From the IMG/VR virus record IMGVR_UViG_3300000117_000264, positions 1 through 23,308 of that record: 23,308 nt of DNA; one strand, given 5' to 3'. The notes under the pieces are model-generated. The model searched no databases and was not told the origin of the DNA. It saw only the letters and a program-made list of their open reading frames with translations. How positions within the stretch are numbered: position 1 is the stretch's first letter; each line of letters begins with the position of its first letter. This DNA comes from a virus. The position numbers and the translations under genes are program-made. This document shows positions 2,528 to 17,800 of this stretch, one piece after another.

Positions 2528-3460
2528 TTATGTAGATACTGTAACAGGTACTAATGCACCTGACTCATCCACTGCATTACAAACATAGTTTTCACAGGAA
2601 AGTAACGATCCTGGATCTACTGCTGTTTCAGGGGCGGTAGCAAATAATGTACCCATCATATTATTGACCATAAGGCCAGTAAAAGCTACATTTAAGTCTA
2701 CTAATAGTCCTGCGGTGGTATCGGCATTGTAAATGACGTTATCTTTGATTAAAAGATTTACGCCGGCAGCACCTTCACCTATAATAGCTGCATCAGTAAA
2801 ATCACCAGAAATATGGTTATTTAAAATGCTTACATTATCACAGTCGTCTAACCGGATTGCTTCATTACATCCTGCCGCGCCTTCCTCTGCTCGTAATTTA
2901 CAATTCTCAATAATCATGCCATCCACAGCATCACAATCAATCATAGTAATAAAATCATCGCCAGTAGCGTTGAATCTAAATTCTAAATTACTTAGCAGGG
3001 CATTGTCTGCGTCTACGTTCACTCCAACAACAACTGCGGAAACATCAGCAGTTAGTGTTAAATTATGTAGGGACACATTAGCAGCATCAATTTCTACAGA
3101 ACCTCCAGTTGCTGAGAAATTAAGATCTGGACGATCATCTCCGCTACCTAGACCAATAACTGCAACCCCGATTTTATCTAAAACCAAGGAAGTAGCAGCC
3201 GCAATATCCTCCGAATGGTTAGGTCTAACCATAATAATATCACCGCGATTATCGGCACATTGACTAATAGCATAGTCGATGGTTGCATATGGTTGCAAAT
3301 AAGAACCCTTATTCCCTGCTCCGTCTGAAGCCCCTTTTTCGCCTCTTAGTAAAGCTGCTGAATTTCCTACCCAGAATACTTTCCCTGGATGGGACAGCTC
3401 TACAGGCATACCTCTAAGGAGTAACCCATTGGGAAATCCTTGGGGATAATTTGATAACAT
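2528..3460 (-). CDS. Right-handed beta-helix (pectate-lyase-like fold) virion protein
   Basis: 310 residues. The middle part (about 60-270) shows repeating short beta-strand turns typical of parallel beta-helix proteins, for example IIENCKLRAEE, VSILNNHISGDF, LLIKDNVIYNAD and LMVNNMMGT. An N-terminal stretch with KGSYLQPYATIDYAISQC resembles the start of pectate-lyase superfamily domains in phage spikes and structural proteins. No catalytic residues of a lyase can be assigned. A clear ribosome binding site (TTAGGAGAT) precedes the ATG. It sits directly after the major capsid gene and is flanked by hairpins on both sides, suggesting separately tuned expression. It may be a capsid- or tail-attached structural protein rather than an active depolymerase. 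Confidence 0.6.
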   Translation of the reverse strand: MLSNYPQGFPNGLLLRGMPVELSHPGKVFWVGNSAALLRGEKGASDGAGNKGSYLQPYATIDYAISQCADNRGDIIMVRPNHSEDIAAATSLVLDKIGVAVIGLGSGDDRPDLNFSATGGSVEIDAANVSLHNLTLTADVSAVVVGVNVDADNALLSNLEFRFNATGDDFITMIDCDAVDGMIIENCKLRAEEGAAGCNEAIRLDDCDNVSILNNHISGDFTDAAIIGEGAAGVNLLIKDNVIYNADTTAGLLVDLNVAFTGLMVNNMMGTLFATAPETAVDPGSLLSCENYVCNAVDESGALVPVTVST

Positions 3461-3476
3461 TTATATCTCCTAATTA

Positions 3477-6895: not shown

Positions 6896-8900
6896 CTTTC
6901 TCGTCTTTCTTAGCTATCTCAGCCGCCTTTTGGGCTAGTTCAACCTCTTTCATGGCCTGACCATGCTTATCGGAATCAATTTTCCTGGCAGTATCTGCTG
7001 CCTTAATTTCTTCCTCGTACTGCATCTTTTCTACCACCGTAGTCATCTTGGCACGGTTTACTAGAGCATCTTGCTGCATTTTCCACACCCTAGCAACAGA
7101 TTCCGCTATACGGGCATCTGCTTCTTCATTCGCTTTCGCTATTTTTTGCAATTCTAATTGATTCTTCTCTGCGGAGAGTGTGGCGTCTGCCGATAATTTG
7201 GCCACCTCAGCCTGTAATTTTTGTACCTCAGCAAGAGCTTTCTGTATCTCCGGAGGAGGAGGAGCATTTGGATCTGGGTCAGGGAGGAGACGTTTTTTAT
7301 CTTCCTCGTCTAATTGAATGGCTTCTAATACCATCTCATCGGCTGCTCTTCTGTCTACTGTAGCTAATTGTTGTATAACATTGGCTCTAATAAGCCTCTG
7401 CTGATCTGAGGATAACAATGGATCTGCAATTGGCAGGATATCCATAGTTTCAATTTCAAAATCTTGTTTAACGTTCGCTTCAGGGTCATCCAACACAGCT
7501 GAATATTCTTTCTGGGTTAAATGTTCCCTATTCAATTCATAAATTTTCTGATATTCACGTTTTAGGCTTCTATACACCCGCTTATTCACGGCGGTATATA
7601 CCTTAGTACCTTGGTCTATCAATTGGCTAATCGTTGTACTAGCAACGTTTTGAGCGGGCTGTTTCCCTAAAAGTACATCAGTAGTAGAGGATAGATCCTG
7701 AGCCGTTTGCATTAAAAGACCCAATAATTGGAATAATGTAGCAGAAGGTTCCTTAAACGGGAGGTTAAAAAATTGTTTGTCGAGTGACTCCCCAGATGGG
7801 GCGTCTATTTTCTGGTATACCCCCATTTTAGCCTTCAAATCACCGGCTTTAAGTCGTAATCTATTACTGTAAAATCCCCCTTGCGTATTACTTAGGGTTC
7901 CTGCGTCAATTAATTGATTGATTAAGGTGTTTATTGCTGTATTCAGGGGTAATAAAAACTGTCCAAACCCCATACTGTAGAATCCCCCATCAGGGGAGCG
8001 GATGAAATGGTAATCCGTGAAGTATTGTATAGGTTCAATACTTTGTACTACGTTATTTACCTTATTAATTTTTTTAAATCTAGGTAGAATCCTGAAAATT
8101 CGCTTAGAATCCTTATGTAAAGTAACAATATAGGGTTCTTTGTATCCATCTCCATCTAAATCCCACCAACAGTGCTGTTCCAACACTTCTATAGGATAAT
8201 CCTCATCCTCTACGGAGGCATAGTCTGAAGGTCGTAGAGTTTCTAGATCGATATCATCTAAATATAAGCCCTTACGTTGTCTTTCTAGTATGTCATTAGT
8301 ATATAATGTGAGTATATGTGTGACTCTGCGGGCTGAGTCTAAGCTCTGCGCGGCATAATTCACACATATCTTCTCAGGAACACATAATTCACTAATACAA
8401 CGTCTTTCAACCTCACTATAGTACGTTTTTTTGAATACCGTACCTAATACAGGGAGAGTTTGAAGGAGTTTGTCTATTCCGTCCTCCCAATCAGGAGATT
8501 TTTGTAATAATTGATATGACATATAGGTTGTTACCCTATCTGCCCTTCTTCGTTTGTTTCCCTGAGGGTCTTTACCTATAATAGACCCTTTAACTATCTT
8601 CTCATTTTGGATAATTTCAGGTAATGTTCTAGAGGCGTAGTCGATGCAGGCTCTTGTGATGATAGGCATCTTAATATTAGCCGCCCCCGGCCAAGGAAAA
8701 GATTTAGGCTCCATTACTTGTTTAGCTATTCCCATAGCTTGTTCTATGGTATGGCTCCACTCGGCTCTGCTATCCTCATCTAATTCATAACCCCTTACCG
8801 CAGATTTAGCCATGTGGGCTAGGGTTTCGTTATCCAATAATTCCGCAATGTTATTAGATTTTTGTAACTCTTCCAGTGAAAGAGAGTCATATTCCGCCAT
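6885..8900 (-). CDS. Portal protein
   Basis: 671 residues, in the size range of podovirus portals. It lies immediately after the large terminase gene. Characteristic parts are the N-terminal SFPWPGAANIKMPIITRACIDYAS, the LPVLGTVFKKTYYSE segment, the central FHFIRSPDGG-like region and GFGQFLLPLNTAINTLINQL, and LLGKQPAQNVASTTISQLID. The last 130 residues are a long Lys/Glu/Ala-rich coiled coil, plausible for a barrel or tail extension. The product would be a dodecameric ring at one head vertex, serving as the DNA channel and docking site for terminase and tail. The start is supported by an AGGA site 9 bases upstream. Confidence 0.85.
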   Translation of the reverse strand: MAEYDSLSLEELQKSNNIAELLDNETLAHMAKSAVRGYELDEDSRAEWSHTIEQAMGIAKQVMEPKSFPWPGAANIKMPIITRACIDYASRTLPEIIQNEKIVKGSIIGKDPQGNKRRRADRVTTYMSYQLLQKSPDWEDGIDKLLQTLPVLGTVFKKTYYSEVERRCISELCVPEKICVNYAAQSLDSARRVTHILTLYTNDILERQRKGLYLDDIDLETLRPSDYASVEDEDYPIEVLEQHCWWDLDGDGYKEPYIVTLHKDSKRIFRILPRFKKINKVNNVVQSIEPIQYFTDYHFIRSPDGGFYSMGFGQFLLPLNTAINTLINQLIDAGTLSNTQGGFYSNRLRLKAGDLKAKMGVYQKIDAPSGESLDKQFFNLPFKEPSATLFQLLGLLMQTAQDLSSTTDVLLGKQPAQNVASTTISQLIDQGTKVYTAVNKRVYRSLKREYQKIYELNREHLTQKEYSAVLDDPEANVKQDFEIETMDILPIADPLLSSDQQRLIRANVIQQLATVDRRAADEMVLEAIQLDEEDKKRLLPDPDPNAPPPPEIQKALAEVQKLQAEVAKLSADATLSAEKNQLELQKIAKANEEADARIAESVARVWKMQQDALVNRAKMTTVVEKMQYEEEIKAADTARKIDSDKHGQAMKEVELAQKAAEIAKKDEKDAK

Positions 8901-16045: not shown

Positions 16046-16074
16046 ACTATAGACTATTTATTTGATTTTGTCAA
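16046..16074 (-). promoter_or_regulatory. Near-consensus promoter of the small zinc/membrane gene cluster
   Basis: Minus strand: TTGACA (16074-16069), 17-bp spacer, TATAGT (16051-16046). It starts only 11 bases after the terminator of the small RNA, so the two units are cleanly separated. Predicted start near 16039, about 22 bases before the first ATG. Confidence 0.75.
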
Positions 16075-16084
16075 GGTTTAGACG

Positions 16085-16108
16085 AAAAAAAAGCCCCGTG
16101 AGGGGCTT
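16085..16108 (-). terminator. Intrinsic terminator of the small RNA
   Basis: Minus strand: AAGCCCC-TCAC-GGGGCTT followed by a T run (stem 16108-16102 with 16097-16091, T8 including the last two stem bases, 16092-16085). This is a textbook Rho-independent terminator. It faces the minus-strand promoter at 16199-16227 and ends that transcript after about 108 nt. Confidence 0.85.
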
Positions 16109-16192
16109 AAAATTCAGAAACGGCGGCCGGTGACAAGTCGGTAACGATTCTAAGGTAGCGAAATTCCTTGGTAAGATGTTTTTATATTTATT
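16085..16192 (-). ncRNA. Small RNA antisense to 23S rRNA helices 69-71
   Basis: A promoter (16199-16227) and a perfect terminator (16085-16108) bracket about 108 bases with no gene. Read on the plus strand, the insert contains CTAAGGTAGCGAAA plus TTCCTTG (16150-16170, 21 bases) and AAACGGCGGCC (16118-16128). From memory both are identical to E. coli 23S rRNA, about 1925-1945 and 1899-1909, in the same order. TAACG (16142-16146) also matches 1918-1922. The transcript, being the minus strand, is therefore complementary to the ribosome's helix 69 flanks. A 13-base stretch between the arms does not match helix 69. A sense-strand rRNA decoy is the alternative, but no plus-strand promoter or terminator is visible. 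Confidence 0.65.
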
Positions 16193-16198
16193 ATAAAT

Positions 16199-16227
16199 AG
16201 ATTAACATATTTATATACCCATGTCAA
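16199..16227 (-). promoter_or_regulatory. Promoter of the 23S-antisense small RNA
   Basis: Minus strand: TTGACA (16227-16222), 17-bp spacer, extended -10 TGT + TAATCT (16204-16199). The -10 is imperfect (3 of 6) but keeps the key T1, A2 and T6, and the -35 is perfect. It shares TTGACATGRG with two other RNA-locus promoters. The stop codon of the preceding structural gene lies inside the -35 box. Confidence 0.6.
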
Positions 16228-16655
16228 GTATGTTGTTTAACATAATATCCGAGAATAGTCACAAATACATCATCATCAGATGTTTTACCCATAATATGGA
16301 CCCCTTCTCCACTACATAGGTACATGTTAGGTAATACCAACTGCCCACTCCTAGCTACCGGTATAGATAATATTGTATTTACTGCAGTACTTGTATCAGT
16401 TGCCAATGCTTCATAGATATCTACCACTGCATCAACTGTAGTACTGATATTTTTATTTCCTACTAAAATAATTCCAGTAATACAAAATATATTATCCCCT
16501 AAAGGAGGAACTATTTCTACTGGAGTGTCGTCTACATCCAACGTAGCATTATAACTTTCGGAAAATTGGGGGGGATTTACAGATATCCCTCCTCCAACAT
16601 CTATTGTAGCAGTATATCCAGTAGCGGAATCTACAATATTTATAGGTAATGACAC
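16224..16655 (-). CDS. Small virion-like structural protein (GTG start)
   Basis: The start chosen is GTG at 16655, whose G is shared with the preceding TAG and which has AGGAG 7 bases upstream. That gives 143 residues starting MSLPINIVDSATGY. The next upstream ATG (16721) would overlap the neighbour by 67 bases. The body has GISVNPPQFSESYNATLDVD, a strand-rich core ITGIILVGNKN...DAVVDIYEA and a final VFVTILGYYV, a pattern I associate with conserved phage structural proteins. Probably a virion or tail accessory protein. Confidence 0.5.
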   Translation of the reverse strand: MSLPINIVDSATGYTATIDVGGGISVNPPQFSESYNATLDVDDTPVEIVPPLGDNIFCITGIILVGNKNISTTVDAVVDIYEALATDTSTAVNTILSIPVARSGQLVLPNMYLCSGEGVHIMGKTSDDDVFVTILGYYVKQHT

Positions 16656-17212
16656 TAGGTTACTCCTTGATCTTCGTATATAGTTATTGTTCCAGAGAGG
16701 ATCCCAGTAGAGGTATCCCACAATAAAGCCATAGCTTTACCCGGAGGAATAATTAAATGGGATGATAGTTCTAAACAATAATCTGTATTAGCTACTGCTA
16801 GCCTCATATATTCTAAAACACCTCCGTTAGTTAATCCTGTAGTATCTGTATCAGTTTTAATTGTGGCGGTAATAGCTACAGAACTACCTAGAGTTCTGTT
16901 GACTGGAGTTATATCAGTACCTGAAGTAAATGAAGCGGTTCCTGTTACATAATGTAACTCGACAGTACCTGCCACTGTGCTTCGAATATTTAAAGATTCT
17001 ACATGTAAATTTTTAGTTCCTGTGTTTTTTATATATACAAAATAGTCATCAGCGCCTACAGGATCAATAGCATCGAATGGCAATGTATACATTTTTTCAT
17101 ATATTTCATTAATGTGCTGATCAATGGGACGAGATACTGATTCTACGTCTAATCTATTTTCTACATTAACTCTAGCCGCATTACCTTTTCCGGCTCCATC
17201 TTTTATAATCAT
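16655..17212 (-). CDS. Virion-like structural protein, paralogue of next gene
   Basis: 185 residues starting MIIKDGAGKGNAARVNVENR then LDVESVSRP. The N-terminal block MII(K/V)DG(A/T)GxGN(A/Q)A(R/K)...NRL(D/Q)V.SV is shared with the 194-residue gene upstream, so they are diverged copies. The rest is beta-rich (FVYIKNTGTKNLHVESLNIR, then SHLIIPPGKAMALLWD). This resembles phage neck, tail or capsid accessory proteins; no enzyme motif. A strong AGGAG site precedes the ATG. Confidence 0.5.
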   Translation of the reverse strand: MIIKDGAGKGNAARVNVENRLDVESVSRPIDQHINEIYEKMYTLPFDAIDPVGADDYFVYIKNTGTKNLHVESLNIRSTVAGTVELHYVTGTASFTSGTDITPVNRTLGSSVAITATIKTDTDTTGLTNGGVLEYMRLAVANTDYCLELSSHLIIPPGKAMALLWDTSTGILSGTITIYEDQGVT

Positions 17213-17215
17213 GAA

Positions 17216-17800
17216 TTACTCCTGATTTAAATAGCCAATTAGAGCTACATAACATGTCATTGAAGTATTACTTGCCTGGGGAGTAATTTTAACTCCTAGG
17301 CTCTTCCCTTTAGGAATTACTTCATTAATTGCTGCAAACAACCTGCCATTTGCCGGCTGATAAAAAAACAAATGATCATCTCCGTCAGTTAGAGTTTTAG
17401 CTTCTGCCCCTTTATAAACATCTGCGGATACAGTATTTGAAGATCCAAAATTTCTATTAGAATTTATACTTACATTACTTGCATCATCAACTATAGTTCC
17501 AGCTGTAGGATTCCTAATAACCTTAATTATCGGAATATCGGTAGAAGCTCCCCCCGTACTAGGTCCAAGTCCTACCACTATAGCTTCAATGATGTAATCT
17601 TTAGATTCATTATTTTTGAAATACAGTACGGCGGACTCATTTGCTGAGGTTAGAGTTAATTCCCCAGTATTCATATTATATGCGCTACCTAATCGGTTAG
17701 CATCTAACCCCTCAGGCTCATTAACCGAATGAACTTGGAGTCGGTTACGGGTGTCAATTTTGGCCTGATTTCCAGTTCCTGTGCCGTCAACTATAATCAC
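17216..17800 (-). CDS. Virion-like structural protein, GTG start
   Basis: 194 residues beginning with GTG (MIIVDGTGTGNQAKIDTRNR), where the GTGA overlaps the preceding TGA and AGGAGG lies 7 bases upstream. It shares its N-terminal motif with the next gene. The beta-rich body includes AVLYFKNNESKDYIIEAIVV, the insertion GPSTGGASTDIPIIKVIRNP and a final YVALIGYLNQE. Similar proteins are virion components in several large phages as I recall them. Function inferred only from family appearance and context. Confidence 0.5.
   Translation of the reverse strand: MIIVDGTGTGNQAKIDTRNRLQVHSVNEPEGLDANRLGSAYNMNTGELTLTSANESAVLYFKNNESKDYIIEAIVVGLGPSTGGASTDIPIIKVIRNPTAGTIVDDASNVSINSNRNFGSSNTVSADVYKGAEAKTLTDGDDHLFFYQPANGRLFAAINEVIPKGKSLGVKITPQASNTSMTCYVALIGYLNQE

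Follow-up and report, generated by a model that had tools for sequence, protein, structure and literature searches.

Phage intergenic cassettes with antisense complementarity to the inter-subunit junction of 23S rRNA: a candidate family of viral RNAs

A 23,308-base stretch of viral DNA from IMG/VR (hereafter the window), together with the phage contigs that share its core motif, raises the possibility that phages carry a widespread and repeatedly acquired class of RNAs that could hybridise to the inter-subunit junction of host 23S rRNA, and in some Firmicute phages also to the anti-Shine-Dalgarno region of 16S rRNA. Such RNAs might control the host ribosome pool, either by stopping its production or by guarding sites that toxins cleave, and we regard this general reading as probable. 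The complementarity to 23S rRNA, its conservation, its antisense orientation, its placement and the accompanying terminator can all be read from the sequences themselves, and at that level the existence of the family is well supported.

The window contains genes for phage head, packaging and lysis, and its terminase is similar to that of EBPR podovirus 1 and to those of uncultured phages. The cassette lies in the gene-free gap between the stop codon of a minus-strand ORF and a strong intrinsic terminator, and its plus strand reads as two collinear 23S blocks of 13 and 21 nt (Table 1). The initial annotation had matched these blocks to E. coli 23S rRNA; by calculation the 21-base block is identical to the positions that it named and the short TAACG segment between the blocks falls where it was placed, whereas the second block, present and in rRNA order as described, is 13 rather than 11 nt long. 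BLAST aligned the stretch to 23S in 5,375 of 5,426 E. coli genomes, in agreement with that annotation, and to phage and plasmid records bearing 23S at E values of about 4e-4 to 1e-3. None of 300 shuffles of the flanks gave a match as good as the 13-nt block. RNA from the minus strand would form a duplex with the 23S core with z = -5.9 relative to dinucleotide shuffles, RNA from the plus strand paired no better than shuffles, and the minus-strand RNA has little predicted self-structure besides the terminator. A likeness of the linker to 16S 1488-1501 was dropped, 23 of 60 shuffles being equally good.

The minus-strand terminator proposed at first sight is real, with a 7-bp stem containing five G-C pairs and a U tract. 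The promoter proposed with it held in part: the -35 hexamer is perfect, whereas the -10 hexamer TAATCT agrees with TATAAT at only three of six positions and the TTGACA-17-TAATCT site was not listed by a consensus promoter scan of the window, so that transcription from this site is only plausible. A perfect TATAAT lies 9 bases beyond TAATCT, at the wrong spacing to the -35 hexamer. Processing of a 3′ UTR could just as well be the source of the RNA. Just past the terminator there is a strong promoter-like TTGACA-17-TATAGT (16046-16074, minus strand), which probably serves the ORFs at 16017-15412.

Table 1. Coordinates of the cassette features in the window (23S positions in E. coli numbering) and of the element in phage CRP-7
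Feature	Position	Strand	Basis or remark
-35-like hexamer TTGACA	16222..16227	-	Sequence; shares bases with the upstream ORF's stop codon
Weak -10-like TAATCT with TG extension and 17-nt spacer	16199..16204	-	3/6 to consensus
Predicted small RNA of ~108 nt, or processed 3′ UTR of ORF 16224-16721	16085..16192	-	Span from promoter-like site to terminator
Antisense block 2, against 23S 1925-1945 (strand joining H69 to H70/H71)	16150..16170	-	21/21
Extension of block 2	16142..16149	-	TAACG (16142-16146) against 23S 1917-1921; then G.U, pair and mismatch to 1924
Unrelated 12-nt linker in place of the H69 loop segment (23S 1911-1916)	16130..16141	-	
Antisense block against 23S 1898-1910 (H68 3′ strand and H69 5′ strand)	16117..16129	-	13/13
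Intrinsic terminator AAGCCCCTCACGGGGCTT and U tract	16085..16108	-	
Upstream ORF, 165 aa, no family	16224..16721	-	Cassette sits in its 3′ UTR
CRP-7 element	record ~54.25-54.45 kb		

Relatives were sought by scanning viral contigs with three seeds, namely the core 17-mer, a 16-mer preceded by C or G, and an 18-mer preceded by A or T; the 17-mer gave non-rRNA matches in phages, and the other two seeds added many more. Raw matches to the 16-mer (43 stretches) did not exceed those to its reversed control (64), so genomic context and second blocks, instead of the match count, were used as evidence. Sixteen of the 27 real clusters fell outside long open frames as against none of 32 reversed-control clusters (p ~1e-7), and an antisense-side intrinsic terminator accompanied 12 of the 27 as against 1 of the 32 (p 2e-4), beginning, where present, 6-19 nt from the core. 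A significant second 23S match, independent of the seed and within 60 nt, was found in the window and in L079, L083, L094, L107, L217, L224 and L076, while L066, L110 and L080 have gapped extensions over H72-H73 with duplex z values of -4.4 to -7.0. Across the well-supported groups, the duplex z values range from -4 to -9 with the sense strand at shuffle level, and the antisense block occurs in about ten such phage lineages, mostly unrelated to one another, plus several weaker ones. Among the latter, L078/L098/L104/L086, L097, L114 and L074 combine the seed with a terminator, and L078, L097, L104 and L081, in which the seed is the only block, have weak duplex scores; these weaker groups may include chance cases. 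Most members of the family are contig fragments.

Matches in coding frames (L063, L064, L082, L085, L087, L090, L109, L112 and L115) were treated as chance, and a contig-end match (L061), a true 23S (L062) and several "phage" records with 23S were excluded. Records labelled as phage that carry 23S segments include KT319643, OR844775 and MZ092003, which are most likely host contamination or chimeras, and a DNA-similarity search of named phages returned only rRNA contamination and one 17-nt match. In L096 (~3436-3476), about 40 nt within a long open frame are near-identical to the 23S complement (24 and 16 nt exact), which could reflect an insertion in a gene or a chimera. Among GTDB-representative genomes, the variant GTCRTAAGGTAGCGAAATT appeared only four times, in an Anaerococcus element, in two genuine 23S sequences and once, chance-like, in a gene. 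Within the otherwise invariant H69-H70 strand of 23S, position 1925 is C almost everywhere but A in Kapaibacterium and Saccharibacteria (L181, L182).

When mapped on the Rfam bacterial LSU model (RF02541), the blocks correspond to strands of the junction that H67 (CGCC/GGCG) closes, covering 23S 1826-1841, 1898-1910, 1917-1945 and 1962-1981. The hairpins H68, H69 and H71 are wholly or partly omitted, some phages carrying an unrelated hairpin in the gap, and this skipping is the look that would be expected of an RNA pairing with 23S after its hairpins have formed. Among relatives the complementary blocks stay constant while linkers, hairpins and terminators change, the pattern that the initial annotation had proposed to look for. 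In the family of the cultured Roseobacter phage CRP-7, GGCG has become AACG, which breaks H67 in the sense strand and leaves the antisense pairing with 23S intact through G.U pairs, and the consensus fold with its covariation term favours the antisense over the sense strand (-41.7 vs -31.8 kcal/mol). A hand tally over all groups of wobble-compatible against incompatible transitions gave 15:9, which is not significant (p 0.15). Taken together, the terminator side, the H67 change in the CRP-7 family, the consensus fold and the duplex energies lend good support to an antisense orientation, and they favour, as a prediction, the initial proposal that the phage makes a small RNA complementary to 23S helices 69-71.

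The member groups differ in their genomic settings. In T4-like marine phages (L079, L083, L084, L088 and L094) the cassette stands directly 3′ of a gp23-type major capsid gene; across the five aligned cassettes there is little or no change in the CGCCATTCGTGT and GGAATTTCGCTACCTTAGGGC-type blocks, the linker and terminator vary, and CGCCATTCGTG(TA) stands as an independent 23S block in antisense order. In the isolated T4-like relatives HTVC008M, Melnitz and Mosig the same place holds a terminator and no cassette. Likewise, the closest syntenic relative of the window (L233) encodes a 54% homologue of the upstream ORF and has no cassette, so that the cassette is an accessory trait, and its absence from all four relatives indicates that it is not essential. 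The same relative keeps the order of a pair of tandem paralogues that are 27% identical and have no assigned family, at 16658-17212 and 17219-17800 on the minus strand of the window.

The CRP-7 family comprises L217, L218, L220-L226 and CRP-7 itself (MK613349, L227), whose identity was confirmed through its terminase. Three blocks lie upstream of the terminase gene (in CRP-7, directly upstream of TerL), the extra ones consisting of 16-18 nt of 23S 1826-1841 and of the 1962-1981 region. A CRP-7 block matches 18 nt of Roseobacter 23S, represented by a Sulfitobacter sequence instead of the actual host, and 16 nt of E. coli 23S, and these two additional nucleotides give a small hint of host fit. 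The 5′ part of the element showed no repeated promoter for a phage RNA polymerase. The CRP-7 terminase, gp62, has its annotated start (L227 1399, record 54353) inside the antisense element; 54251 is the probable conserved start. Neither noncoding nor sRNA occurs as a word in the paper describing CRP-7 (PMC6918029).

Two Firmicute phages, L065 and L070, and an identical stretch of an Anaerococcus genome (L183, prophage) carry, besides the core, 12-13 nt (AGGAGGTGATCC or GAGGTGATCCAAC) that could pair with the 3′ end of 16S rRNA in the anti-Shine-Dalgarno region; in antisense orientation they are located about 60-125 nt upstream of the core and share its gap. In L070 there is, in addition, a mini-ORF of 7 codons with a strong Shine-Dalgarno sequence just ahead of it. 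L066, L077, L110 and L089 form one group, to which L107, with independent 23S pieces from H72-H73 in antisense order, is perhaps related; L080, L093 and L111 form another, with a permuted tmRNA nearby. The permuted (two-piece) tmRNA gene of L080 occupies 7531-7734, about 0.5 kb from the cassette. Further members are L067/L072, L105, L095, L219, whose cassette lies directly downstream of a tRNA, and L074, whose cassette lies in the tRNA array of a 344-kb phage. One phage contig (L100, 1-10927) brings together a ROOL RNA, a raiA-type RNA, many tRNAs and an antisense-23S-like stretch.

What such an RNA would do has to be inferred from its predicted target, as do its transcription and binding. We favour, with a probability of about one half, a trans-acting antisense RNA that would pair with H67-H72 of 23S in immature or free 50S subunits and block maturation or subunit joining. 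The minus strand would give rise to a small antisense RNA, either from its own promoter or from a 3′ UTR, with its 3′ end set by the terminator. Acting in trans, this RNA would pair with host 23S around the multi-branch junction that helix 67 closes, at about 1898-1945 in the window and additionally at 1826-1841 and 1962-1981 in relatives, with H68, H69 and/or H71 looped out of the duplex. Invasion of the junction strands would be most likely in immature and free 50S subunits, because there the strands are unpaired or weakly paired and exposed. Either late 50S maturation or 50S-30S joining would thereby be blocked, so that late in infection the production of new ribosomes could be stopped or subunits could be idled. 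Helix/loop 70 is accessible to the toxin MazF-mt6 in free 50S and not in 70S, and a mutation at this site abolishes 50S-30S association (PMC5408214); depletion of the assembly factor YjgA yields immature 50S subunits that are abnormal mainly at the peptidyl transferase centre and H68/69 (PMC11260487). Blocking ribosomes would bring no obvious benefit to a phage that depends on them, unless it happens late or only on new subunits.

The main rival to such a block of maturation or joining is protection, which we rate as unlikely on present evidence. The RNA would serve as a shield or counter-defence, covering rRNA sites that toxins cleave (UUCCU in 23S helix/loop 70 and, for L065/L070, the 16S anti-Shine-Dalgarno region), or as a splint for repair. 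The cleavage sites of MazF-mt3 are exactly 23S helix/loop 70 and the 16S anti-Shine-Dalgarno region, MazF-mt6 cleaves H70 (PMC5408214), and the complements of both MazF-mt3 sites stand in one stretch of L065/L183/L070; several cassettes also have phage tRNA or tmRNA genes close by, where counter-defence functions that protect translation are typically encoded. However, covering H70 should itself block the ribosome, the blocks reach well past the cleavage site, and AGGAGGTGATCC may simply be a strong ribosome-binding site. An RNA-ligase splint was rejected, since Rnl2-type RNA ligase (PF09414) is not enriched (3/34 cassette records vs 2/34).

A duplex of this kind might instead recruit RNase III or other nucleases, so that 23S is degraded and its nucleotides are freed for phage DNA synthesis. 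Continuous duplexes of about 20 bp are possible, and a number of the phages seem to come from the sea, where phosphorus and nitrogen may be in short supply. Decay is nevertheless a doubtful explanation: the complementarity is broken into blocks, and expression together with late genes is expected for many of the RNAs. A slimmer prospect is a cis-acting element, in which pairing would tether phage mRNAs for capsid or terminase to the 50S subunit and favour their translation. The location within the major capsid gene's 3′ UTR in T4-like phages and directly upstream of TerL in CRP-7 would fit, but most cassettes have a stop codon on one side and a terminator on the other, others lie by tRNA genes at a distance from late mRNAs, and they thus serve no common mRNA.

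The simpler origin put forward in the initial annotation, a captured rRNA fragment or homing-site remnant, or else an assembly chimera, in each case functionless, appears very unlikely. The blocks overlap the I-CeuI region, true chimeras and rRNA contamination do occur among the records searched (L061 and several labelled as phage), and L233 lacks the cassette; nevertheless, a multi-block architecture recurs across unrelated phages in the same orientation, between genes and with a terminator, the blocks past the endonuclease site are retained, the hairpins are skipped precisely, and the blocks are invariant across several diverged loci of one group. Least probable of all is a sense-strand rRNA mimic, also raised at the outset, whose plus-strand RNA would titrate a ribosomal protein, an assembly factor or an rRNA-modifying enzyme: the stretch resembles the H70-H71 region, a substrate of RlmD, but terminators are antisense-side rather than sense-side (12 vs 3 of 27 clusters), the H71 hairpin is mostly missing, H67 pairing is lost in the CRP-7 family, and the sense consensus fold and covariation are weaker.

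If an antisense RNA that blocks 50S maturation or joining is confirmed, phages would possess a compact, RNA-only tool against the ribosome where it is most conserved, a tool put to use in phages as diverse as Firmicute prophages and large marine phages, which suggests a previously undescribed viral route to act on the host protein-making machine. CRP-7 and its RCA Roseobacter hosts, which can be cultured, would allow direct tests of how phages handle the host ribosome pool, and the design of antibacterials could draw on natural antisense sites in 23S. No family among the Rfam 15 covariance models covered the cassettes at gathering score, and the open-access literature searched yielded no phage or antisense RNA directed against 23S or other rRNA. 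To our knowledge, no virus-encoded antisense RNA against ribosomal RNA has been described; antisense pairing is an old principle, and what appears to be new is a viral class directed at junctions in rRNA.

Several known systems share single features with the cassettes. Phage trans-acting small RNAs are likewise short intergenic or 3′-UTR RNAs with an intrinsic terminator that act through base pairing; those known to us act on mRNAs or transcription factors, whereas the cassette RNA would target rRNA through two or three discontinuous blocks. The C/D-box guide RNAs of archaea and eukaryotes and the antisense ribosomal siRNAs of C. elegans pair with rRNA, as the cassette RNA would, but the cassettes are viral and bacterial and involve no short-RNA machinery, and no C/D boxes or kink-turn are apparent in them by eye. 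The 23S-methyl leader RNA of Rfam is also a non-rRNA element resembling 23S, but it is a leader acting in cis and in sense orientation. MazF-mt3 and MazF-mt6 share a target with the cassettes, since they attack 23S helix/loop 70 and also the 16S anti-Shine-Dalgarno region that is complemented in L065/L070 (PMC5408214); these toxins are protein endoribonucleases, whereas the product of the cassette is predicted to be an antisense RNA.
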